IMG/VR virus record: IMGVR_UViG_3300025910_000035
Coordinates: 1 to 24,156 of that record
Length of the DNA stretch: 24,156 bases
Source of the DNA: a virus
Direction: 5' to 3' (one strand)
In this document: one piece after another, positions 2,976 through 20,872 of the stretch
How the letters are laid out: every line of letters begins with the position of its first letter
How positions within the stretch are numbered: the first letter of the stretch is position 1
The notes under the pieces: model-generated
Databases searched by the model: none
Seen by the model: only the letters and a program-made list of their open reading frames with translations
Told to the model about the DNA's origin: nothing
Position numbers and translations under genes: made by a program

Positions 2976-5900
2976 ATGAGTCGCGGCCGTATCTTTCGGC
3001 GGTATCCACAGCCTTTTGTTCCGCGCCCCGGCGTTCCCGTCAGTGGGCCGAATCAGTGGACCCGGACTACATCTGAGGCTCCGACTACTTCTGATGTTGC
3101 GACGCGCGTTGGCTCTTTCAACCGCACTACATCTGAAGCGCCCACTAGTTCTGATGTCGCCATCAGGGTAGGTAGTTTCAATCGGACAACCTCCGAAGCG
3201 CCCGTTACTTCGGATGTCGCGACGCGGCAGGTTGCGTTCAACCGTACGACTTCCGAGAGCCCTACCACCTCCGATGTTGCCACCAGGGTTGGCACGTTCC
3301 ACAGGACCACATCTGAAGCTCCAACCAGCTCGGATGTAGCGACTCGTTCTGTTGCTTTTCTGCGGTCCACGACCGAGGCTCCTACCACTTCGGATGTAGC
3401 GACTCGGACGGCGAGCTTCAATCGCACGACCTCCGAGTCTCCTACAACCTCTGACGCCGCAACTCGCACCGGCACATTCAACCGGACGAGCGCAGAAGCG
3501 CCCACGACCTCCGATGTTGCCACCCGCACGGGGACATTCAACCGAACAACGTCTGAGGCTCCGACCACCTCTGATGCGGCGGTGGCAGTCAAGACCGCCA
3601 ACCGCACCACGTCGGAATCACCTACGACATCTGATGTCGCCACGCGACAGGTTGCCTTCTCGCGCAGCAGCACTGAAGCTCCGACGACTTCTGACGCAGC
3701 CACGCGAACTGGCTCATTCAACCGGACTGATTCTGAATCTCCGACTACCTCTGATGTCGCCACTCGTACCGGGACGTTCAATAGGACGACCTCGGAGAGC
3801 CCTACCACTTCGGATGCGGCGACTCGTCAGGTTGCTTTCTCTCGTTCGACCACAGAATCTCCCACCACCTCCGATGTTGCGACTCGCCAAGTTGCCTTTA
3901 GCCGTTCTACGACTGAGGCGCCCACTACCAGCGATGTGGCGATTCGTCAGGTCGCGGCATCTCGAACTACATCTGAGAGCCCGACAAGCTCAGACGTAGC
4001 CACGCGGACAGGTTCCTTCAATCGGACCACCAGCGAAGCGCCGACGACCTCGGATGTCGCGACTAGAACTGGATCATTCCAGCGGACCACATCTGAGTCC
4101 CCGGTAACCTCGGATGTTGCGACGCGGGTCGTCGCATTCGCAAGGACTACCGCCGAGAGTCCGACTACCTCGGATTCTGCGACCCGCACGGGTACGTTCT
4201 TCCGTACCACTTCTGAGTCTCCGACCACTTCGGACGCGGCTCTGGCTGTCGCTGGTGAGAGCCGCACCGACAATGAATCGCCGACCAGCTCCGACGTTGC
4301 GACTCGGACAGGTACGTTCAACCGCGTTACTTCTGAGGCGCCGACTACTTCGGACGTTGCTACCCGGTCGGTTGCCTTCACTCGCACAACGTCTGAAGCT
4401 CCCACCACCAGTGACGCCGCCACTCGTACAGGTTCATTCCAGAGGTCCACCTCTGAAGCACCGACAACCAGCGATGCGGCCACTCGTACCGGCAGTTTCA
4501 ATCGGGATGACGCTGAGAATCCCACTACCTCAGACATAGCAACTCGCAGCGTTACTTTCAATCGCAGTAGCACCGAATCGCCACAGACCAGCGATGTTGC
4601 AACTCGCACTGGGAGTTTCAACCGAATAACCGCCGAGTCGCCCACGACCAGCGATGTGGCGACGATGCTGATCGGTCACACGACCAGCTTCACCGCAGAT
4701 GCGGTCATCGCCTCGGGGACTCAGGTAGCGTCCTTCACTCTCGACGCGATCCTGCTGCGGACGCAGAGCGTTTCGCTCACCGCGGATGCCATCATCCTAC
4801 GGACCCAGGCAGCCAGCCTCACAGCGGATGCCGTCCTGTTCCGCTCGCAGTCGGCGAGCTTCACGGCGGATGCAGTCCTAACCAAGACCCAGGCTGCAAG
4901 TCTCACCGCAGATGCGGTTCTGTTCAGGACTCAGGCCGCTTCCCTGACCGCTGACGCGGTTCTGTTCAAGAGTCAGTCAGCGTCCTTCACCGCCGATGCG
5001 GTACTCCTGCGAACGCAATCCGCGTCGCTGACTGCGGACGCCGTTCTATTCCGCACTCAGACCGCGGCGCTGACCACCGACGCGGTGATCTTCAGGACCC
5101 AGGTCGCCGCGTTCACTCTCGACGCGACGATCATGCCGGTCTTCAGTCTGGATGCGGTCCTGCTGAAGACGCAGACGGCTGCGCTGACGGTCGATGCGGT
5201 CATCATGCCGCGCTTCCGGCTGGATGCCGTCATCCTCGCTCCACAGAGCGCGTCATTCACTCTGGATGCCTTCGTCGGCGGAGTCGGCTTTACCGCCTTC
5301 AGCATCGACGCAGTTCTCCAGGCCACCCAGACCTCATCGCTTACCGCCGATGCAGTCATTCAGCGGTCGCAGTCGGCCAGCCTGACCCTCGATGCAATTC
5401 TCAAGCGAGAACAGAGCGCCGCAGTCACCCTCGATGCAATTGTCCGAGCGACGGTTTCAACTTCGCTCAGCCTTGATAGCGTCATACAACGCACGCAGGC
5501 CAGAAGTCTTGCCCTCGACGCTATTGCAAAGCGCGCTCAATCTGTTACATTCACCACCGACGCGGTTCTGCGGCGAACGCAAAGTGCTTCGTTCACCGTT
5601 GACGCGATCCAGCGGAAGACAACTTCGGCTTCGATTACAGCCGATGCGGTGCTTCGCAAGGCTCGCCAGGCGAGTTTCACCGCCAACGCGGTACTGCTGT
5701 CCCCGCGAAGCGCCTCTCTTACGCTCGATGCCGTTCTGGCACCGACCGCCAAGGCGTTCACGCTCAACGCGGTCATCACCCGGACTCAGGCCGCCTCCCT
5801 CACGCTCAATGCGGTCCTGCGCCGTTCTCAGAGCGCGTCATTCACAGCCGATTCCGTTATCAAGGTTGCTCGCTCGGCGAGCTTCACCGCCCATGCGGTT

Positions 5901-6239
5901 CTATTCAGGACCCAGACTCCTGCTCTCACCGCCGACGCGGTACTCAAGCGAGAACAGGCCGCATCCTTCACCATCGACGCTTGGATCGCTGGGATTCATC
6001 CGTCCCACATCAGCGCCGATTGTTCTGCGGCGGTCATCAGTGCCGACCTAACGGTTTCGTCCATCGTCTCAGACCTGCAAGTCCACAGCATCCTTGCAGA
6101 CCTGACCACGAGTGGTATCACCGCTGATCTGACCGCCACTGCCACTACTTCCGATCTCGGGGTCGCCGTACACCGCAGGTCGTTCAGCATGAATGCCTAC
6201 ATCGCCCATTCATTGACCATTGACGCGGTTATCGTCTAG
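2976..6239 (+). CDS. Giant tandem-repeat fibre-like protein, 1087 residues
   Basis: Residues 1-29 are a short basic/proline-rich lead (RRYPQPFVPRPGVP). Residues 30-569 are 27 uninterrupted 20-residue units close to RTTSESPTTSDVATRTGSFN. Residues 570-1009 are 32 units of mostly 14 residues close to ASFTADAVLFRTQS. Residues 1010-1087 hold nine-residue ISADLTVSS-like units and a closing SLTIDAVIV. No enzyme motif, signal peptide or membrane segment is seen. The regular, low-complexity, beta-prone architecture fits an elongated virion fibre; this is inference, and I do not recognise a named family. It is followed ten bases later by a BppU-like gene, which supports a tail or baseplate role. The only in-frame start is ATG 2976, directly after a TGA and without a ribosome site. 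The next gene but two is a glycosyltransferase, which could act on the many Ser/Thr residues. Confidence 0.88.
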   Translation: MSRGRIFRRYPQPFVPRPGVPVSGPNQWTRTTSEAPTTSDVATRVGSFNRTTSEAPTSSDVAIRVGSFNRTTSEAPVTSDVATRQVAFNRTTSESPTTSDVATRVGTFHRTTSEAPTSSDVATRSVAFLRSTTEAPTTSDVATRTASFNRTTSESPTTSDAATRTGTFNRTSAEAPTTSDVATRTGTFNRTTSEAPTTSDAAVAVKTANRTTSESPTTSDVATRQVAFSRSSTEAPTTSDAATRTGSFNRTDSESPTTSDVATRTGTFNRTTSESPTTSDAATRQVAFSRSTTESPTTSDVATRQVAFSRSTTEAPTTSDVAIRQVAASRTTSESPTSSDVATRTGSFNRTTSEAPTTSDVATRTGSFQRTTSESPVTSDVATRVVAFARTTAESPTTSDSATRTGTFFRTTSESPTTSDAALAVAGESRTDNESPTSSDVATRTGTFNRVTSEAPTTSDVATRSVAFTRTTSEAPTTSDAATRTGSFQRSTSEAPTTSDAATRTGSFNRDDAENPTTSDIATRSVTFNRSSTESPQTSDVATRTGSFNRITAESPTTSDVATMLIGHTTSFTADAVIASGTQVASFTLDAILLRTQSVSLTADAIILRTQAASLTADAVLFRSQSASFTADAVLTKTQAASLTADAVLFRTQAASLTADAVLFKSQSASFTADAVLLRTQSASLTADAVLFRTQTAALTTDAVIFRTQVAAFTLDATIMPVFSLDAVLLKTQTAALTVDAVIMPRFRLDAVILAPQSASFTLDAFVGGVGFTAFSIDAVLQATQTSSLTADAVIQRSQSASLTLDAILKREQSAAVTLDAIVRATVSTSLSLDSVIQRTQARSLALDAIAKRAQSVTFTTDAVLRRTQSASFTVDAIQRKTTSASITADAVLRKARQASFTANAVLLSPRSASLTLDAVLAPTAKAFTLNAVITRTQAASLTLNAVLRRSQSASFTADSVIKVARSASFTAHAVLFRTQTPALTADAVLKREQAASFTIDAWIAGIHPSHISADCSAAVISADLTVSSIVSDLQVHSILADLTTSGITADLTATATTSDLGVAVHRRSFSMNAYIAHSLTIDAVIV
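3063..4682 (+). repeat. 27 tandem 60-base units (20-residue repeats)
   Basis: Exact 60-base periodicity with no indel over 1620 bases. Invariant or nearly invariant positions are R1, E5, P7, S10, D11, A13. Most units end in one of two cassettes, TG(S/T)F or (Q/S/V)VAF, with EAP/ESP and DVATR/DAATR as further two-state positions. Units 9 and 20 deviate in the same place (AVAV and ALAV instead of ATR). DNA copies differ strongly at synonymous sites, for example T-S-D as acttctgat, acctccgat, accagcgat or agctcggat. Confidence 0.95.
4683..6002 (+). repeat. 32 tandem units of about 42 bases (14-residue repeats)
   Basis: Unit consensus ASFTADAVLFRTQS; core pattern is S-(F/L)-T-x-D-A-(V/I)-(L/I). 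Four consecutive units near 5101-5258 are 12 residues, one is 13 and the first is 15; the others are 14. The alternation of small/hydrophobic and polar residues suggests a short beta strand and a turn per unit, as in beta-solenoid or triple-beta fibre shafts. That structural reading is inference. Confidence 0.92.
6003..6165 (+). repeat. Short nine-residue ADL repeats at the end of the fibre
   Basis: About five or six units related to I-(S/T/L)-(A/S)-D-L-T-x-x-x: HISADC, VISADLTVSS, IVSDLQVHS, ILADLTTSG, ITADLTATA, TTSDLGV. After them come two diverged copies of the 14-residue type (SFSMNAYI and SLTIDAVIV), so the protein closes with its second repeat family. Confidence 0.8.
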
Positions 6240-6572: not shown

Positions 6573-6760
6573 TCCGAACTTATATTTTGAACCGCGCGTC
6601 TGGGATCGTTCACCTGATGCTCGATTCCAAGACCTCGGAATCCTGCAATATTGATGACATCAAGCGGAAGTCGATCTTCACAGGTGAGGGTGGACGCGGC
6701 GACGTGGAGCACCTGATCCGGGCTGGAAACGCGAGAACCTGCCTTCGCTGCTGGACATGA
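6569..6760 (+). CDS. Small 63-residue protein with CxxC end
   Basis: ATG 6569 overlaps the preceding TGA as ATGA, giving translational coupling. The sequence reads NRASGIVHLMLDS, then SCNIDDIKRK, and ends ARTCLRCW, a layout I recall from small unnamed phage proteins with a late CxxC. Three cysteines (one mid, two at the end) and a histidine could bind a metal, but this is not certain. Its own stop overlaps the glycosyltransferase start, so it belongs to the same operon. Function unknown. Confidence 0.7.
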   Translation: MIRTYILNRASGIVHLMLDSKTSESCNIDDIKRKSIFTGEGGRGDVEHLIRAGNARTCLRCWT

Positions 6761-7992
6761 GCCGCTGTTTATGGATTGGCGACTGGGCGGCAACAGGGTT
6801 CGGGAGAGCCTCAGAGGAACTGTGTAATCGGCTGGTGGATCGCGGCCACGAAATCACGGTCCTCGCTGTCAATTACCGCGGCGATGCTAAGCCATCGCGG
6901 GTCAGCTTGATGATGGCAAACGGCAAAGAACAGAAGGATGTCTACGGCTACAGCCGAGTGGTCGAGGCTTTAGGCGCCGTGGAACCCGACGTGGTAGTCC
7001 TGTTCAATGACCCGCCGATTCTGATCCATTACCTGTTCCGCAATTCCTTCGACCCCGAGCTGGTGCTGCTGAAGTACCGCCCGCTGATTACCTATCAGAC
7101 CCGCGATGGTCTGAACGGGCCGCGAAGCTGGGACGCCCTGCGGTCTATCAAGGTCAACGGCGAGCCGTGGCAGGTGTCTAACGAGATCGCGATGAGCAAG
7201 TTCGGCCAGAACCAGATGCCCGGAGCGGACCTCGCCTATCACGGCATTGACCCGCAGGTCTTCCATCCGGCCACGCCGCAGACTCCGGTGTACTTCAAGG
7301 ATCAGCGGATCACATCTAAGCGTGAGGCCAAGGAAGCACTCGGAGAGTCAGCAGATCAGTTCCTGATCCTGCGTGTGGACAAGAACTCGTGGCGTAAGGA
7401 TTTCGCGGCGACGTGGAAAGCCCTTCTGCCAGTGATGAAGCGCCACTCCGACATCACCGTGCGTTTCCACTGCGGCAAGAGCGATTACGCGGGCGGCGTG
7501 CAGATGCCCGAGCTATTCACCCGCGATACCGAGACAGCGGCGCGATTCAAACTGCCCGAGAACTTCAGCGATTACACCGGCTGGTCAGTCTCAGAGCTGG
7601 TGACGCTGTACAACGCCGCAGACTTGTTCGTGACGACCTCGATGGGCGAAGGATTCGGCTTGACGATTGCCGAGGCTCTGGCTTGCGGGGTTCCAGTCAT
7701 CGCCCAGAACGTGAGCGCCATTCCAGAAGTGGTGGGTCCGGGCGGCATCCTGATCGACGGCGGCTATGAACTGACCGCACCAGGTGGTCAGGATGTGTAC
7801 GCGGCGAACATTCCAGCCTTCACAGAGGCAATCGAGCATCTGTACCTGAACGCCGGATTCCGAAAGCGCTACGCCAAGGTAGGTATGGCCCACGTCCGCG
7901 AAACCTTCAGGTGGGATACGGCCGCAGACACCTTCGACAAGCACATTCGGGACCTGCACGCGAACACGGAGTTAGTTCCCGTCAGCGCGTAG
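6757..7992 (+). CDS. GT4-type (GT-B fold) glycosyltransferase
   Basis: 411 residues from ATG 6757, overlapping the previous stop as ATGA. The N-terminus has the glycine-rich acceptor-side loop (WIGDWAATGFGRASEELCNRL). The C-terminal half has the GT4 hallmarks: RVDKNSWRKDF-type nucleotide-sugar region, LVTLYNAADLFVTTSMGEGFG, and the E-x7-E motif at residues 298-306 (EGFGLTIAE) followed by ACGVPVIAQNVSAIPEV. It should transfer a sugar from an activated donor with retention; donor and acceptor cannot be read from sequence. Its place among fibre, baseplate and head genes makes a virion protein the most likely acceptor, with host envelope glycans or DNA as alternatives. Full length, no broken motif. 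Confidence 0.9.
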   Translation: MSRCLWIGDWAATGFGRASEELCNRLVDRGHEITVLAVNYRGDAKPSRVSLMMANGKEQKDVYGYSRVVEALGAVEPDVVVLFNDPPILIHYLFRNSFDPELVLLKYRPLITYQTRDGLNGPRSWDALRSIKVNGEPWQVSNEIAMSKFGQNQMPGADLAYHGIDPQVFHPATPQTPVYFKDQRITSKREAKEALGESADQFLILRVDKNSWRKDFAATWKALLPVMKRHSDITVRFHCGKSDYAGGVQMPELFTRDTETAARFKLPENFSDYTGWSVSELVTLYNAADLFVTTSMGEGFGLTIAEALACGVPVIAQNVSAIPEVVGPGGILIDGGYELTAPGGQDVYAANIPAFTEAIEHLYLNAGFRKRYAKVGMAHVRETFRWDTAADTFDKHIRDLHANTELVPVSA

Positions 7993-13684: not shown

Positions 13685-14074
13685 GTGGCAAACAGCGATA
13701 CCAGAATTTCAGGAGCAAATGCTGCGATCTACATTGGCGGCACGAAAGTCGCAGCCAAGGCGCAGTGGACGCTCAACCGAGCCCGCGACACGATTGAGGT
13801 CACGAGCTTCGGCGATACCAACAAGACCTACGTGGTCGGTCTGCCCGACATCTCAGGGTCCTTCTCCGGATTCCTCGACTCCTCGGGTGACATCCTGCTC
13901 ACCAACGCCGCAACCACGACTCCGGTGTCCATTGCCCTGTGGGCCGTGGATGGCACAACCGAAGTGGCTCACGGCTCTGGCTACGTGGATGCGACCGTGA
14001 CCGCAGGTGTCTCCGACGCCGTGCGTATCACCGGGAACTTCCGCGCCTCTGGGAACTGGATTCTCGACCTGTAG
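13685..14074 (+). CDS. Major tail (tube) protein
   Basis: 129 residues from GTG 13685 with TGGAG in front. The sequence shows the compact pattern of siphovirus tube proteins: GANAAIYIGGTKVAAKAQWTL split by the tube fold, then IEVTSFGDTNKTYVVGLPDISGSFSGFLD, and a closing VRITGNFRASGNWILDL. The ITSFGD-like and GDISGS-like motifs are typical of gpV/TP901-type tube proteins. It lies between the tail terminator and the assembly chaperones. A long base-paired RNA ending in a T-tract follows, which would let the tube gene be transcribed at a higher level than the genes after it. Confidence 0.82.
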   Translation: MANSDTRISGANAAIYIGGTKVAAKAQWTLNRARDTIEVTSFGDTNKTYVVGLPDISGSFSGFLDSSGDILLTNAATTTPVSIALWAVDGTTEVAHGSGYVDATVTAGVSDAVRITGNFRASGNWILDL

Positions 14075-14204: not shown

Positions 14205-14531
14205 ATGCCCGATGATGTCGGATTCTCTATCAACAAGGTCAGCGGCACTGACGGTTCGGTGCGATTGCCGGATGTCGGCGTGCTCGTCGGCTGGTTTTCC
14301 ACTTGGAGCCTGTCCAAGAAGAACCCGCTCGATTCCACCTACGTCCTCAAAGCCACCTTCGGCCATGTCAACGAGACGCTGTGGAACCAGGATTACCGCA
14401 AGGAATTCACCGTTAAATTGTCCAAGGACAAGGTGTATTCACTGGCCCAGCCAGATGGTGCGAAGGTTGAGTTGAATGGTAATCAGCTCACGATGGAGCA
14501 GGTATCTCTAACGGCGATTGACAATGGATAG
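14205..14531 (+). CDS. Small tail protein of unknown function, 108 residues
   Basis: ATG 14205 is preceded by GGAGG (14190-14194) with ten bases spacing. A short GAGG-CCCA-CCTC hairpin (14191-14202) could partly mask this ribosome site. The protein (DDVGFSINKVSG, VLVGWFSTWSL, HVNETLWNQDYRKEFTVKL, ending MEQVSLTAIDNG) is beta-rich and mixed in charge; I do not recognise a family. Its place between the tube gene and the assembly chaperones suggests a second tail protein, for example a tube-associated or minor tail component. Its stop TAG 14529-14531 lies inside the start region of the HNH gene at 14524. Confidence 0.7.
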   Translation: MPDDVGFSINKVSGTDGSVRLPDVGVLVGWFSTWSLSKKNPLDSTYVLKATFGHVNETLWNQDYRKEFTVKLSKDKVYSLAQPDGAKVELNGNQLTMEQVSLTAIDNG

Positions 14532-15033
14532 CGAGGAAGAGCGTCGAGCTAAGCATGCCACTTACCAGAGGGCTTATTGGAATTCTCACCCAGAATTTCG
14601 AGAGCGGCAGAAAGAGAAGCGCAGACAATATTTCCTCAAGCCAGGGGTCAAAGAACGGTACGCAGCTCACCAGCTTCGGTACCGTAATAACAACATAGAA
14701 GCTGCCAGAAAGCGGGCTCGGCAGTGGCACATTGACAATCCAGAAAAGGTTAGAGCGCAGATTCTGGCACGTCGTGGAACAACACTAGAGTGGTTCAGAA
14801 ACCAACTCATTGGGCAAGCAGGTCGATGTGCGATCTGCGGGTTCGTGTTTCCCTCGTCCAAAGCTACCCATGTGGATCACGATCATAAGACGGGACGTGT
14901 AAGAGCACTACTGTGTAGTCACTGCAACGTACTGCTAGGAGCGGCACGAGACAGACCTAAGATTTTGTTCAAGGCCGCAGCGTATTTGAGGAGTTCAGAA
15001 TGCCCGCCAGACGATCAGGACTCGCAGTCGTGA
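14524..15033 (+). CDS. Endonuclease VII-type HNH nuclease
   Basis: 169 residues. The C-terminal part is a clear recombination endonuclease VII domain: C102-A-I-C105, VDHDHKTGRVRALLC (D118, H119, D120, H121, C131), then C134-N135-V-L-L-G and a closing DRPKILFKAAAYL. The two CxxC pairs should hold zinc and the HDH region with N135 the active site. Residues 1-90 are highly basic and helical with repeated YRxxxxE-type charge patterns, probably for DNA contact. ATG 14524 overlaps the previous gene by eight bases and has no ribosome site, so translation is probably coupled. The gene is richer in A and T than its neighbours and separates a tail gene from the chaperones: signs of a mobile insertion rather than a packaging Endo VII. 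Confidence 0.88.
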   Translation: MDSEEERRAKHATYQRAYWNSHPEFRERQKEKRRQYFLKPGVKERYAAHQLRYRNNNIEAARKRARQWHIDNPEKVRAQILARRGTTLEWFRNQLIGQAGRCAICGFVFPSSKATHVDHDHKTGRVRALLCSHCNVLLGAARDRPKILFKAAAYLRSSECPPDDQDSQS

Positions 15034-15326
15034 GCGAGAACAACAGCCTATTCGCAGCCAAGACCGTCGAGATCGGCGGCACCACCTATACCGTCAATGA
15101 ACTCGATGGCGGTACCTATGACGAGTGCATCGAGAAAGCCAAGACCGAGACTGGCATCGACACCAGCGCTCTCCTCAAGTTCATGACCGAGAAGGCAATC
15201 AGCCCCAAGCTGACGATTGCCGAGATCAACAAGCTGCCGTTCACCAAGCGCGGTCAGTTGTATGACGCGGTGAATGACGTTCATTTCCCAGCCCGCGAAT
15301 CAGTGGGAAAAGCGGACAACGCCTGA
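15000..15326 (+). CDS. Tail assembly chaperone, short form (gpG-like)
   Basis: 108 residues from ATG 15000, which has GAGGAG seven bases upstream inside the HNH gene. GTG 15030, with a GTGA overlap to the HNH stop, is an alternative that removes ten residues (MPARRSGLAV); the first conserved-looking residues (FAAKTVEIGGTTYTVNELDGG) lie after both. The segment YDECIEKAKTETGIDTSALLKFMTEKAI and LTIAEINKLPFTKRGQLYDAVNDVHF is typical of chaperones encoded just before the tape measure gene. It carries a slippery GGGAAAA near its end, so a longer product is expected too. Confidence 0.82.
   Translation: MPARRSGLAVVSENNSLFAAKTVEIGGTTYTVNELDGGTYDECIEKAKTETGIDTSALLKFMTEKAISPKLTIAEINKLPFTKRGQLYDAVNDVHFPARESVGKADNA
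15305..15311 (+). promoter_or_regulatory. -1 ribosomal frameshift site GGGAAAA
   Basis: The heptamer is in phase with the chaperone frame (G GGA AAA), the canonical X XXY YYZ layout. Slipping one base back continues into an open frame that runs to TAA 15500-15502. A small CTGAG/CTCGG hairpin (15323-15335) lies 11 bases downstream. The same site type and gene position are well known in lambda (GGGAAAG in gpG/gpGT) and most siphoviruses. Confidence 0.8.
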
Positions 15327-15505: not shown

Positions 15506-18500
15506 ATGGCCGAAGACGAAATCTCGGGCCTAAGCGCCGAGATAACTGGAGACACGACTGGCTTGCAGGCCGCTTTTGAGCGGGCTGCGGGTATGTACCG
15601 TGCCTTCGACCAGAAATATGGTCGCCTCACTGTCCAGATCACCGCCAACGTCGCGCCGCCCAGTCAACAGGCTGTCGCCGCTACAGCTCGTGCGGCAACC
15701 GAGGCCACGGCACGCGGCGGGACAGCGGTTGCGATTCCCACTGCTCTTTCGGCTCCCACTCGTCAGCAGGCCGCGGTCCTTCGCGAACAGACCACGCGGC
15801 TGCTTCAGGCGGAGGCTGCCGGAGCGTCCATCGTTCCGGTCTTCCGTGCTCCGTCTGGAGCACCGGGTGGTATCGGTGGGCGGTTCATCTCTCCAGCACA
15901 GGCCGCTTCGCTCACGCCGCAACTCGACCAGGCGCTCAAAACTCACGATGCCCAACTGGCGACCGAGGTCAACGCCGCTTCCCAAACGGCACGTAGCAAT
16001 GTCCGCCAGTCTTTGGTGCCGATCATCTCGCGGCCGCAGATCGCGGTCCCGGTAGCTAACCAGATTCCCGAGGAGGAGATAAGAGCACAGGCCCAGAGCC
16101 GCGCTAATGCTCTAGGACGCGCGGTCCAGTTCCCAACCGCCGCAGGCATCGGGCGTGTCTTCCCGACTGGTAGAGGCGGTCCTGTTGGGGCAGAGGGCGT
16201 CGAATCAATAGGCGGCGTGCCGCTACCGCCAGGAGCACGAGCGTTCACTAGAGGAAACCCACAAGCGGAGGAAGAAGCTGCTCGATTCCGTGCTGAGAAC
16301 ATACAACTGCGGCAAGCCGCTGGACTCACTGCTCCAGGTGGCGCTTGGAGGAATACTCCACAGGCACAAGCAGGGAATGTCTCTCTAGTTCCAATCCCGC
16401 TCCTCAATCGGATGCGAGAACTTGAACGCTCTGGACCTCAGTCCCGTGAAACGATTGAGAGAATAAAGGCTTCGATACAGCAGCGCGGTTTGGATGAACC
16501 GCTTGGAATCGACTATAGCGTGGCCGATAGGGCTGCTTCCCTTACTGAAGGTCACCATCGTCTTATCGCGGCCCAAGAACTTGGCTATACGGCTCTCCCC
16601 GCCCATGTAATGCGTCGGGAAGGACCACTAAGCGGACGCTCTGGGAAGCTTCCTCCACTTCCAGTCGAACAGCCAATAGAGCCTGACGAATTTGGCTATG
16701 TGAAGGGTAACTTCCCGCCATCTCGGATATTCCCTCCGACTCGTGGGATTCGCGGTGCGCAGGAAGCAGGCGCCGCACCCGGATTGAGCGAGATCGTCCG
16801 TTCTCAAGCTGCACGGATCACCGAGCTTGAAGGGCAATTGGGACGCGGACGACCAGTTCAGCCCGGAGCGCTATTCGATCCTCGTCTCGCGGCCACTGGC
16901 TCACAATTCCGCGCTCCTGCTGGAGCACGCGGAGCAGCCGGAGAAGCCATCGGTGGACGGGTCGTTGCGGCTCCAACCGACACTCCAGCACAGCAGGCCC
17001 TCCGCCGTGTCCAGACCGAACTGACTCAGAACGAGGAAACCCTTACTCGGGCGCGCCGCACTGAACTTACCCAAACTCAGCAGTTCCTCCAGCAGATCGT
17101 GCGGCTTACGCCGCGCCAGCAGATCGAGACTGCCCAGACCGCCTCGCTGCAACGACCCGCTCCAGGTGGCGCAGTCCAAGCAACAGAACTACTGCGTCAG
17201 GCGATTACTGGAAGCCTTCTCCCGGCTCCGGTATATCCAGCGGCTAGGGTTGCTCCCATCGTTCGTCCCGCGATCCAGGTTCCGGTTGCAGCGGCTGGAC
17301 CAGCAGCCCCAGCGCCTGTCACCGAGGAACATCTGCGAGCCTTTGCCAACGTGCCATACGGCGGTCGCAAGGTAGGAGAACTGCCACGCGAGCAGCAGAT
17401 CAAGACCATTGGCTCGTTGCTGGCATCGGGAGTTCCGGTACCTCAGGTGCCACGGCCGCTGGAGGAAGTCGCGGCTACCGGCCTTCCCACCGCAGGTGAG
17501 GCACTACCTGAGCGAGCTGCCCAACTTCCTGAAATCGCTGAGGCTCGCGCGCAGCGAGTCACAACTGCGGGCGAAGCGCGTGTCGGTAGCTTGCGTTCCA
17601 CGATCTCGTCGTTGTTCTTCACGATCTCCGGTGCCCGTGGCAAGGTCGCCGAACTTGAAGATCAGCAGCGCGATTTCACTTCCAAGATCGTCGCGAATAT
17701 CAAGGAAGAAGAAAACATCACCAAACGGCTGCCTGCCGAACATGCGGCTGCCACGGCCGCTATCGGTGAGCCTGAGAAGTTCGAGAAGCTCAACGCCCAG
17801 TACGAGTTATCAGGCAAGCGGCTCGGTGAACTACGGGGTCAGCTTCCGGCGCTGCGCGAAGGTCTGGCAGGTGTCAATAAGGAACTCGGCGCGCTGAATA
17901 CCGGAGGCTCGGCGCTGGCCGCGTCCTTCGCTGGTGGTGTGATCGGTGGACTCGCCTTCAGCGTTGCGATGCAGGGTGTCACGGCCGTTGTAGGACTGGC
18001 AGCCAAGGCTCTTGATCCAGCCATTGAGCGGGTCACCGGCTTCACCACGCTAACGAATTCGCTGACCGATGCACTTTCGGATCAGAGCCGCGCTCTGAAG
18101 GGTAATACTGAACTAGCGGTGGCGGCCAGTTTTGCGCAGTCTGGACTTTCCGAGAGCGTCGCCGCCAGTATTCGTCCTCTTATTGAACAGCGCACGTCTT
18201 TGGAGGCAGGCGGCAAGGCACTTCAGGACCAGATCGACCAGATCAATGCCGCCTCGCAACTCCAGAATCAGCTAAGGCTGGCTGGCACGGGTCAGGCGGT
18301 TGGCTTTGGACAGACGCCGGGTGCTATCCCTGGGATCAGCACGGGCATCGGCGGATTCCTCAATACGCCGCTATTCCAGACGCCAGGAGCCATAGAGCAA
18401 CTTGCTCGTCTGACACCGCAAGGCGCTGCACAGCAGCGGGCTATCGGTGGAGCAGCCATCGGCGGCGGAGCTGGCATTCTCGGTGGTGCCCTTGCTGGTG

Positions 18501-20872
18501 GTGTAGCGGGTGGTATCGCAGGCGGCGGAGTGTTCTCGTTGCCTGCTGCTGGCATTGGAGCAATCCTTGGAGGCTTGGCTGGGGCTGGTATTGGCGCTGG
18601 CACCGCGAATGGCCTGCCGAGTATCGGTCTGCCGGGAATTTCTGGGAATCCTGCCGACTTCCAGAGGAACCTGCGCTCTCAAGCTCAGACTGGTCAGGCC
18701 GCTCAAGACCTGTCGGTCTTTACGCTGGCTATCAAGGACCTCGATGATGCTGCCAAGCGGGGTTCCCCAAATGTGCGGGACCTTGGAACCGCGATCAGCG
18801 GCTCTACCAATCAGAGTCAGATCGACCAGACGCAGAAGCTCCTCGAAGCACTCAAGGTTCCCGAGGACCAGCGAGAGAATCTCAAGCAGGCTGGATTTGT
18901 CCTACAGAATGCCTTTGGCGGCGTACAGAATGTCCGACAGGCTACGCAATTCTTCCAAGGTGCAACTCGTGGCGCTGCCATCCCTGCCCCACAAGAAGCC
19001 CTTGCTCAACTGCGCGAGCAGACCATTCCGGCGCGGCAGTTCCAGGTCCAAGCTCAGGCTGCGGCCCAGCGCGATCAACTTCAAGCCCAGATTGCCATTG
19101 CGCGCGCCGCACAGCCGTTCCTGCCAGCAGGTGTCACGGTTCCAGGTGGACTGAGTGCCGTCAGTTCCCAGATCACCGCACTCATCGGAAACTCGATCAA
19201 GGGTATTGACACCATCCAAGCGCAGCGGATTGAGGCTGGACGGGTCCAGATTCAGAACATCACCTCGGGTCTGGGGCCGCAGGCTCAGGCTGCGGCGGGT
19301 GCCGATTTCACTAGGATTCAGCAGCTCGGTGGACAAGCTGCCGCACTTCAGACAGGGATCACCCAAGAACAGGTTGGGCTACAGACAGCACAGTACAACG
19401 AGCAGATTCGCCAGCAGAAGCTGGCCCTGACTGACCTTGCCCAGATCACCGGGCGCATCGGGTCAATCGCCGGAGACAATCTCGGCATCTACGAGAAGCA
19501 GGCGATTGTCCTTGGGCGGCAGAGCGCCGAACTCACCCTTCAGTCGCAGCAACTCCAGCTTCAGAGTCAGTCCCTCCAGCTTCAACTTGCCCAGCGCCAA
19601 CTCAACTTCCAAGTCGCCGTCGCAGGCTTCGCGGGCGGCCCTGGTGAATCTCCCGAGGAAGCCGCACTGCGACAGGAAGCCGCCAAGCAGCAGGCAGCCT
19701 TCGCGCAGAAGCAGCTCGACATTCAGAAGGAACAACTGACTCTCGGCGAGAAGCAGGTTGCTTTAGCAGGCCGCGCCCTGCCGATCAGTTTCCGCATCGA
19801 GGACATCCAGCACAACCGCGACTACATCACCGCGGTCCATGCCCTGTCACTACTTGAACGGGCGCGGCAGGTCACGATTGACACGGCTGGCGCACAGGAA
19901 GCCTTACAGCGTATCCAAGCCGAGATCGACGCTTCCACCGCCGACCTGAATACCTATCTCCAAGCTGGCGAGCAGTTGATTCAAGGTGTCATCAGCGACG
20001 CCGCAGGCTTCATCCAACAGTACAAGCAGTCCGCTGAGACTCTGGAGCAAAGCGCCGCAGCCTTCTTCTCGGGCACCTCGACCGCATTCAGCAGTGCGTT
20101 CAACACATATCTGAAGAACGTCACGGGTCAGATCATAAACGTCACGTCTCAGCTTGCTGGAGTAACAACGGGCGGTACACCTAGTCGCGGGTTCTTTGCC
20201 CAGACCGGCTATCTAGGTAGCGTCAGTAATGACACTACGTTCCATGCTGGTGAGGCGGGGACCGAAGCGGTAGCAGTTCTAGCTCAACCGCGCGATGTCA
20301 CGGTTCATCCGACTGGCGCAATGCAGATGACGGTCGGACAAGCCAAGGGCCAGACCGTCGGTATCGTCAAGAACCCTCCGAAGTTCGCGGAAGGCTATGT
20401 CGGTTACATAGACCATCGCTCGATTTCTGAGACGAATCGGACGAACCAGGTCAATAACACGGCTCGCTACGCGACTGGCTATGTCGGATACGTGGACCGA
20501 ACTTCGCGCCTTTCTGACATCTCTCGGTTCTCAGATATTGCTCACCACGCTAAGGGTTACGTCGGGTACCTGAGCCAGCGATTCGCTGATGGCTATGTCG
20601 GTTCCATGCCTGCGGCTCCGCGCTATGCCGAAGGCTACTTTGGTTCGATGGGCTCAGAGCCGCACTACGCCGCGGGCTTCGCAGGCATTACCTCGCCGCA
20701 GACCATGTTCTCTAGCTCTAGCGGCGTCACGGTCAACATCACTATCACCGGAAATACGATCCGCTCCGACGAGGACATCGACAAACTCGCCGCGAAGGTG
20801 AGTGACATCGTGACCCAGCGCTTCGGCCGCACTTCCTCACTTCTCGGCTTCCGCTTGCCCAGCGGGTCCTAA
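15506..20872 (+). CDS. Tape measure protein, 1788 residues, with inserted ParB-like domain
   Basis: ATG 15506 has GGAG six bases upstream. The N-terminus (EISGLSAEITGDTTGLQAAFERA, split) is the usual start of these proteins. Residues about 292-372 look like a ParB/sulfiredoxin-fold domain: RETIERIKASIQQRGLDEPL, then EGHHRLIAAQELGYTALP with G349-H-H-R352. Hydrophobic or glycine-zipper segments lie near residues 803-837 and 977-1035, and a Gln/Leu heptad-like coil near 1345-1372 (LQLQSQSLQLQLAQRQL). The C-terminal part has GEAGTEAVAVL, typical of tape measure ends, then six copies of a YAxGYVG-type repeat (about 1626-1728) and a final NITITGNTIRSDEDID. It sets tail length; 1788 residues at about 0.15 nm each suggests a tail of roughly 250 nm, less if the inserted domain does not span the tube. 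Confidence 0.92.
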   Translation: MAEDEISGLSAEITGDTTGLQAAFERAAGMYRAFDQKYGRLTVQITANVAPPSQQAVAATARAATEATARGGTAVAIPTALSAPTRQQAAVLREQTTRLLQAEAAGASIVPVFRAPSGAPGGIGGRFISPAQAASLTPQLDQALKTHDAQLATEVNAASQTARSNVRQSLVPIISRPQIAVPVANQIPEEEIRAQAQSRANALGRAVQFPTAAGIGRVFPTGRGGPVGAEGVESIGGVPLPPGARAFTRGNPQAEEEAARFRAENIQLRQAAGLTAPGGAWRNTPQAQAGNVSLVPIPLLNRMRELERSGPQSRETIERIKASIQQRGLDEPLGIDYSVADRAASLTEGHHRLIAAQELGYTALPAHVMRREGPLSGRSGKLPPLPVEQPIEPDEFGYVKGNFPPSRIFPPTRGIRGAQEAGAAPGLSEIVRSQAARITELEGQLGRGRPVQPGALFDPRLAATGSQFRAPAGARGAAGEAIGGRVVAAPTDTPAQQALRRVQTELTQNEETLTRARRTELTQTQQFLQQIVRLTPRQQIETAQTASLQRPAPGGAVQATELLRQAITGSLLPAPVYPAARVAPIVRPAIQVPVAAAGPAAPAPVTEEHLRAFANVPYGGRKVGELPREQQIKTIGSLLASGVPVPQVPRPLEEVAATGLPTAGEALPERAAQLPEIAEARAQRVTTAGEARVGSLRSTISSLFFTISGARGKVAELEDQQRDFTSKIVANIKEEENITKRLPAEHAAATAAIGEPEKFEKLNAQYELSGKRLGELRGQLPALREGLAGVNKELGALNTGGSALAASFAGGVIGGLAFSVAMQGVTAVVGLAAKALDPAIERVTGFTTLTNSLTDALSDQSRALKGNTELAVAASFAQSGLSESVAASIRPLIEQRTSLEAGGKALQDQIDQINAASQLQNQLRLAGTGQAVGFGQTPGAIPGISTGIGGFLNTPLFQTPGAIEQLARLTPQGAAQQRAIGGAAIGGGAGILGGALAGGVAGGIAGGGVFSLPAAGIGAILGGLAGAGIGAGTANGLPSIGLPGISGNPADFQRNLRSQAQTGQAAQDLSVFTLAIKDLDDAAKRGSPNVRDLGTAISGSTNQSQIDQTQKLLEALKVPEDQRENLKQAGFVLQNAFGGVQNVRQATQFFQGATRGAAIPAPQEALAQLREQTIPARQFQVQAQAAAQRDQLQAQIAIARAAQPFLPAGVTVPGGLSAVSSQITALIGNSIKGIDTIQAQRIEAGRVQIQNITSGLGPQAQAAAGADFTRIQQLGGQAAALQTGITQEQVGLQTAQYNEQIRQQKLALTDLAQITGRIGSIAGDNLGIYEKQAIVLGRQSAELTLQSQQLQLQSQSLQLQLAQRQLNFQVAVAGFAGGPGESPEEAALRQEAAKQQAAFAQKQLDIQKEQLTLGEKQVALAGRALPISFRIEDIQHNRDYITAVHALSLLERARQVTIDTAGAQEALQRIQAEIDASTADLNTYLQAGEQLIQGVISDAAGFIQQYKQSAETLEQSAAAFFSGTSTAFSSAFNTYLKNVTGQIINVTSQLAGVTTGGTPSRGFFAQTGYLGSVSNDTTFHAGEAGTEAVAVLAQPRDVTVHPTGAMQMTVGQAKGQTVGIVKNPPKFAEGYVGYIDHRSISETNRTNQVNNTARYATGYVGYVDRTSRLSDISRFSDIAHHAKGYVGYLSQRFADGYVGSMPAAPRYAEGYFGSMGSEPHYAAGFAGITSPQTMFSSSSGVTVNITITGNTIRSDEDIDKLAAKVSDIVTQRFGRTSSLLGFRLPSGS
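20381..20691 (+). repeat. Six degenerate YAxGYVGY repeats near the tape measure C-terminus
   Basis: Copies: KFAEGYVGYIDHR, RYATGYVGYVDRT, HHAKGYVGYLSQR, RFADGYVGSMPAA, RYAEGYFGSMGSE, HYAAGFAGITSPQ. Core (R/H/K)-(F/Y/H)-A-x-G-(Y/F)-x-G. Spacing shrinks from about 26 to about 14 residues along the series. The aromatic/glycine pattern resembles choline- or sugar-binding type repeats in look only; no function can be assigned. Confidence 0.8.

Follow-up and report, generated by a model that had tools for sequence, protein, structure and literature searches.

The usual view of tape measure proteins (TMPs) is that of rulers and membrane channels. They are ejected from the tail tube (PMC13277306) and have a role at the inner membrane while the genome is injected (PMC13190303). 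Contractile injection systems use effectors that derive from TMPs and contain an endonuclease or another domain, as described for Tme (PMC11126660) and Sle1 (PMC13277306). The locus described here would share with these two the ejected TMP-like protein, the effector- or endonuclease-type domain and the exchangeability of functional domains. It differs in that their effector is C-terminal and belongs to a contractile injection system of the cell's own, while our sequence is from a phage with head genes and the putative slot is located in the N-terminal half of the protein. An enzyme motif embedded in a TMP is also known from mycobacteriophage TM4 (Piuri and Hatfull 2006, cited in PMC13277306). 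As far as that citation describes it, this is a peptidoglycan-hydrolase motif directed at the cell wall during entry, whereas the modules of the group studied here are of a nucleotide- or DNA-acting type.

Polyvalent proteins, which occur in phages and in conjugative elements (Iyer et al. 2017, PMC5512222), combine disparate enzyme domains, ParB/Srx-type domains included, in one polypeptide linked to virion genes. Tape measure proteins are not mentioned there, whereas in our case the polypeptide that combines the domains is a TMP, with EGHHR as its ParB motif. A survey of the ParB-CTPase fold (2025, PMC12704722) also reports domain fusions and NTP versatility in phages, but names no tape measure fusion. 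The closest relatives of our domain in the phage collection (34.7-37.6% identity, motif EGNHR) are Bxz1-like (Bixzunavirus) proteins such as EasyJones gp85. In contrast to the protein studied here, EasyJones gp85 has 575 aa, is encoded outside the tail genes and is not a TMP; in our own reading it consists of a segment like an ADP-ribosyltransferase (ART), a ParB and a second ART-like segment (L005:2338-4065).

Polyvalent proteins, TMPs with enzyme motifs and TMP-derived effectors are known. What would be new is a phage TMP with a cargo slot whose contents are shuffled. The open-licence literature searched does not connect polyvalent proteins with tape measures and names no tape measure fusion of the ParB fold, which does not establish priority. 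In a 2023 survey of mosaicism among phage proteins, no genuine recent case could be confirmed for TMPs (PMC10684548); by sequence comparison, two pairs described below (the window and L002, L019 and L020) look like such cases.

The tape measure gene and its inserted segment

The window, which is the whole stretch of DNA analysed, is an entire IMG/VR virus record of 24,156 bases. It contains a head-tail block in the order glycosyltransferase, prohead protease-like protein, major capsid protein, connector genes, tail terminator and major tail protein, followed by two small genes which flank an endonuclease VII-like gene, the ORF 15506-20872, an 875-aa protein and a YqbQ-like start. The features needed here are:

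13685-14074, plus strand: major tail protein (phrog_10528, 1e-7), kept in relatives
14205-14531, plus strand: small gene, by its position a likely tail-assembly chaperone, kept upstream of the TMP in relatives
15000-15326, plus strand: second small gene, also by position a likely tail-assembly chaperone and kept upstream of the TMP in relatives
15506-20872, plus strand: TMP gene, 1788 aa, assigned by position and by a core homologous to ORFs at the TMP position of relatives
16199-16732, plus strand: inserted segment, residues ~232-409, from the protein and DNA alignment with L002 and the codon-usage extreme
17849-20854, plus strand: conserved core of the TMP, residues ~782-1783 (matched by an iterated profile built on the L004 core, E 6.8e-202)
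17909-17971, plus strand: predicted transmembrane stretch, residues 802-822
18512-18571, plus strand: predicted transmembrane stretch, residues 1003-1022

The ORF 15506-20872 follows the tail terminator, the major tail protein and the two small genes and is by this position the tape measure protein. It is the long ORF between the major tail protein and chaperones on one side and the distal tail genes on the other, and homologous ORFs occupy the equivalent place in related contigs. The protein contains no cysteine and has two predicted transmembrane stretches. No TMP profile of PHROG was matched directly by it; the N-termini of the corresponding proteins of L019, L017 and L048 match the TMP models phrog_1538/5062. 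Single-sequence scans with the TMP or its ParB domain revealed no close DNA or protein relatives, and the same kind of scan with the downstream 875-aa protein found no relatives.

The nearest relative is L002, with a capsid protein 66% identical and a TMP 64% identical overall. In the TMP alignment a gap of ~175 residues lies opposite window residues ~232-409, with a few residues at the right edge uncertainly placed. The DNA alignment places the insert at about nt 16199-16732, nearly equal to the boundaries 16200-16770 which the first-pass annotation had given from the sequence alone. That annotation had also asked which related TMPs lack the segment. The ParB domain was not found in the TMPs of L002, L003, L004, L008, L015 and other relatives, so its presence in all relatives, which was looked for as well, was not observed. 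Since the domain is missing from so many of them, it is simpler to assume that the window lineage gained it than that it was lost repeatedly, and on these alignments the ParB/Srx segment is a recent in-frame insertion.

The composition of the segment is foreign. Its GC content is 55.2% against 61.0% in the remaining gene, and GC3 is 42.7% against 61.9%. When windows of 178 codons were sampled every 10 codons along the gene, the synonymous-codon distance peaked in the window starting at codon 231 (76.6, median 38.8). The insert contains 6 of the 11 ATA codons of the gene, and its GAA:GAG ratio is 12:4. A deviating codon usage, as proposed before, is seen, but AGA is less frequent than the proposal suggested, with two codons in the insert and four in the whole gene; ATA and GAA contribute more to the deviation. 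The Pro/Gly-rich linkers described around the domain were supported.

The two small genes enclose the endonuclease VII-like gene (14518-15033, Pfam 1e-19), which lies 0.5 kb ahead of the TMP gene. The counterparts of the small genes in L002 overlap, with nothing in between and without an endonuclease VII-like gene; this gene therefore looks like a second recent insertion in the window.

Fold, pocket and relatives of the ParB/Srx domain

The following features are located within the inserted segment:

16373-16633, plus strand: ParB/Srx-fold domain, residues 290-376 (PHROG and Pfam matches, AlphaFold2 model, Foldseek and VIA comparisons)
16418-16429, plus strand: E305..R308 of an RE[LFY][ED]R motif that follows strand 1, without variation in the five closest homologues
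16547-16561, plus strand: E348-G-H-H-R352, putative nucleotide-pocket motif
16634-16732, plus strand: Pro-rich C-terminal extension of the module ('EPDEFGYVKGNFPPSRIF'), common to L052 ('DPDQFGYVPGQMTPTQIG')

Residues 290-376 of the TMP form a ParB/Srx-fold domain. With the whole protein as query, residues 307-369 match several ParB families of PHROG at E-values of 2e-4 to 2e-3 (best named matches phrog_4715, 2e-4, and phrog_620, 5e-4) and one unnamed family with 9e-6. If the segment is searched alone, the ParB scores improve to 1.9e-5, 4.1e-5 and, for phrog_3951, 7e-7. The Pfam family ParB_N gives 0.008, short of its curated cut-off. An AlphaFold2 model built on an alignment of 13 sequences has a mean pLDDT of 72, with 84-94 in most 10-residue blocks of the core, and its element order E-H-H-E-E-H-E is the ParB/Srx arrangement. 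All top PDB structures in a Foldseek search with this model are ParB/Srx proteins (ParB, Noc, sulfiredoxin), and VIA-align gives a Z of 11.7 to plant sulfiredoxin 6ky4 (rmsd 2.3, 88 aligned) and of 10.3 to ParB 7bnr. As the alignments for this model and for that of the L019/L024 domain described below were seeded with the window domain, the PHROG and Pfam matches are the more independent support. A ParB-like domain at residues about 292-372 had been read from the sequence before; both the profile matches and the structure prediction bear this out, and a model lacking the ParB/Srx fold did not occur.

In the five-member close subfamily E348, G349, H351 and R352 are invariant (EG[HN]HR), and G349 and R352 of the GxxR pocket motif are invariant in 13/13 sequences. 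The five closest members also conserve a proline, and the window copy keeps every conserved residue. At the aligned place of the solved Noc/ParB chains the motif is GERR. This motif of the canonical ParB/Noc CTP clamp is absent from the window domain, and a function as CTP clamp was rejected on that ground. The helix-turn-helix (HTH) and dimerisation domains which follow in ParB/Noc are not present in the insert; no HTH family was matched, and the insert ends ~30 residues past the fold. A sulfiredoxin function was also rejected, as the cysteine of GCHR is replaced by His and the TMP is without any cysteine. The free serine kinases SerK/SbnI are a further candidate for comparison: the motif is GxHR as in SbnI and the VIA Z is 8.8, while the C-terminal domain is missing. 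The invariant E305 lies near the region of the catalytic Glu of SerK (E30, after strand 1), which is a matter of proximity only. DdrB-like ParB domains are characterized by an Asp/Asn ending strand 2 and an extra helix with a Tyr (PMC5512222).

Some phage fusions of the ParB-CTPase fold, including those to DUF6551 and DUF1983, bind ATP (PMC12704722). Because of these fusions, and because the motif is neither GERR nor GCHR and resembles GxHR of SbnI, the EGHHR domain is likeliest an NTP-binding enzyme of the ATP type. The ParB/Srx-type domains of polyvalent proteins were proposed to be NTP-regulated DNases (PMC5512222), and a nuclease activity of the same kind is possible for the window domain.

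The closest homologue is a 645-aa protein on a different viral contig (L052), whose neighbour gene matches a DNA-polymerase exonuclease family. The similarity continues beyond the fold ('EPDEFGYVKGN' in the window, 'DPDQFGYVPGQ' in L052), and for this reason the module seems to reach the right edge of the insert. Further homologues are L053 (184 aa), proteins of Bxz1-like mycobacteriophages (L055, L061, EasyJones gp85) and very large multidomain ORFs with 2100-2700 aa (L060, L062, L063). Judged by these homologues, the donor-type proteins are phage polyvalent-like proteins, and elsewhere the EGHHR subfamily occurs in multidomain and stand-alone ParB-like proteins of phages.

Modules in the tape measure proteins of relatives

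About 25 distinct related TMPs were gathered by a scan with the capsid protein alignment and a scan with the TMP core. A core of ~870 aa is common to them. Its start varies from residue 327 to residue 1672, and the N-terminal part is correspondingly variable (327 to 1672 aa). Most of the long N-terminal regions show no recognised domain, but several carry modules.

The TMPs of L019 and L024 contain a second, diverged ParB/Srx domain, identical in the two copies (phrog_2159, 0.004; held-out profile E ~1e-4; structure model with Z 9.9 to sulfiredoxin). HNH domains were identified at residues 669-712 of the L027 TMP (Pfam 5.7e-10), with intact motif residues (CxxC..DH..N..CxxC), and at residues 810-875 of the L021 TMP (phrog_7785, 2.5e-9). 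DUF7178 is present in L048 (5.6e-27), L019 (1.3e-18), L024 and L020, in the latter cut by the contig end; in several phage records DUF7178-like proteins are labelled 'glycosylase' or 'N-glycosylase/DNA lyase'. A DUF7178-like stretch also occurs within a gene annotated as portal protein in Tunturiibacter phage Tunturi_3 (PP885686.1, 74429-74971), which has the lowest E-value among the phage-collection matches listed.

The most important case is the 2538-aa ORF L048:3482-11095, which unites modules with the conserved TMP core (E 1.2e-212) on a contig with the same capsid gene. Ahead of the core it contains an HEFGHAVD motif and a C-x2-C segment, and it weakly matches zinc peptidases (E 0.07-0.2) and GNAT (0.009). 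Disparate domains in one virion-gene-linked polypeptide, as in polyvalent proteins, are found both here (DUF7178 with the TMP core) and in the window (ParB with the TMP). The ORFs of L019 (11314-15228), L020 (6098-10177), L024 (5515-9249) and L017 (7692-10247) leave their contigs before the core and are therefore TMPs by position and N-terminal similarity. They are mosaic arrays of modules with recurring RxMAGGPx linkers in between. ART-like segments in L019 and L020 have no Pfam match and are not claimed as ART.

L019 and L020 share a stretch of 231 aa which is 90% identical, between flanks of 48-67%, and L020 is without the part of L019 containing the ParB module. By this comparison modules are exchanged among L019, L020 and L024. 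The L019 ParB module is bracketed by imperfect 30-nt repeats (80%) encoding KRRMxGGPA. No DNA repeats were found to flank the window insert or the L027 HNH domain, so that repeat-mediated exchange of modules is only a hint.

As a control we used 70 TMP-like ORFs with a PYxVGE motif from other phages, mostly generic TMPs. None of them carries ParB or DUF7178, the lone match being L019's own record, and this rate is approximate because contig ends truncate part of the control ORFs.

A putative cargo slot and its alternatives

To our preferred reading we give slightly better than even chances: the TMP of this phage group would be a polyvalent cargo carrier, and the ParB/Srx domain of the window an injected NTP-binding enzyme. 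The conserved N-terminus and the conserved C-terminal core would do the tail job, while the Pro/Gly/Ala-rich region between them would be a slot which accepts whole enzyme-like domains in frame. In the window phage a ParB/Srx-fold domain belonging to the EGHHR subfamily would recently have entered this slot. We infer that the domain is packaged in the tail within the TMP, is ejected alongside it at genome delivery and then reaches the host membrane or cytoplasm. There it would bind an NTP and act on a target as an NTP-regulated nuclease or phosphotransfer enzyme, and thereby either help the entering DNA or disarm the host. Entry into the host and action at the first moment of infection, as the first-pass annotation had suggested, would be in keeping with the polyvalent proteins (PMC5512222), with ejected TMPs (PMC13190303, PMC13277306) and with the nuclease effector Tme (PMC11126660).

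The reading as injected cargo is suggested by E305, R308, E348, G349, H351 and R352, which are kept despite divergence, and follows the same logic as for the TMP-derived effectors Tme and Sle1. The slot is suggested by the recurrence of ParB/Srx, HNH and DUF7178 modules in the relatives, set beside the 0/70 controls with ParB or DUF7178. Against the cargo reading stands that the window phage has just one recognisable module, that most of the long N-terminal regions in relatives show none, and that a folded domain of ~10 kDa must fit into the tail lumen or unfold there. Access to the cytoplasm is uncertain, because the membrane is considered the usual end point of TMPs. A broader version, which we regard as tentative and somewhat below an even chance, is a polymorphic TMP delivery platform with a fixed core and a slot. 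In it DNA-directed modules (ParB/Srx, HNH, the glycosylase-like DUF7178, perhaps a zinc peptidase and an acetyltransferase) would be swapped through recombination within Gly-rich linkers and injected with the genome.

It is rather unlikely that the segment is a recent chance insertion, tolerated in a flexible linker and so far without a selected function. A recent event is indeed indicated by the foreign composition and by the absence from a 64%-identical relative, and the N-terminal regions of the TMPs differ greatly in length. A chance event does not sit well with an entire domain in frame with the subfamily-invariant residues intact, nor with DNA-enzyme-like modules recurring in relatives while ParB and DUF7178 are missing from 70 control TMPs.

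The domain could alternatively be a structural or assembly accessory without a host job, a clamp in the tail which binds NTP or DNA and grips the end of the genome, controls the pace of ejection or assists assembly. We consider this unlikely. Its location speaks in favour, as the N-terminal part of a TMP points to the head if other siphophages are a guide. The ParB fold is a general module for NTP binding, and ATP is bound by phage fusions, one to DUF1983 among them (PMC12704722). Yet relatives assemble without the domain, and a single assembly role would not explain why unrelated enzyme types (HNH, DUF7178) are found in the equivalent region.

A selfish insertion of the homing type, mediated by an intein or an HNH enzyme, is very improbable, even though an endonuclease VII-like gene is located 0.5 kb upstream of the TMP gene, L002 is without one, and nuclease genes are reported to mark boundaries of phage exchange (PMC10448857). 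No Hint/intein family (Pfam) was matched, the protein has no cysteine and the TMP reads through without a stop, on which grounds the intein and homing readings were rejected; the cysteine evidence applies to Cys-type inteins. ParB folds are not known as homing enzymes, and homing could account for the arrival of the module but not for its job. That the metagenome assembler joined a ParB segment to a TMP is hardly credible: there is one contig, and a search for a second copy of the exact junction found none, but both junctions are in frame within a homologous TMP which matches L002 on both sides, and comparable modules occur in other contigs.

If the cargo reading is true, a slot for foreign modules would make TMPs a class of injected effector carriers, so that TMP-derived effectors, known from contractile injection systems, would occur in phages too. 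The wider point beyond the single phage first noticed would be the module slot across the whole group. Two questions would then become testable, namely what portion of a TMP gets into the host and whether the length of the tail depends on the entire protein or on the core alone, given N-terminal parts of 327-1672 aa and a core of ~870 aa.

Some observations concern the rest of the window. The major capsid protein has no match at 1e-3 in the phage collection, and the sole cellular relative of its gene lies on a contig of a MAG labelled Anaerolinea (L029 / L066), with a TAA inside the capsid frame and a different TMP downstream. No relative of the capsid protein was found in other genomes among 400 of that MAG's phylum. 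In most relatives, too, the family-4 glycosyltransferase (6757-7992 in the window, Pfam GT4-conflict) is kept next to the genes for protease and capsid. A 1087-aa ORF at 2976-6239 consists of two degenerate repeats ('TTSEAPTTSDVATRTGSFNR', 'ASLTADAVLFRTQ'), and the repeat protein is also present in L002 and others.
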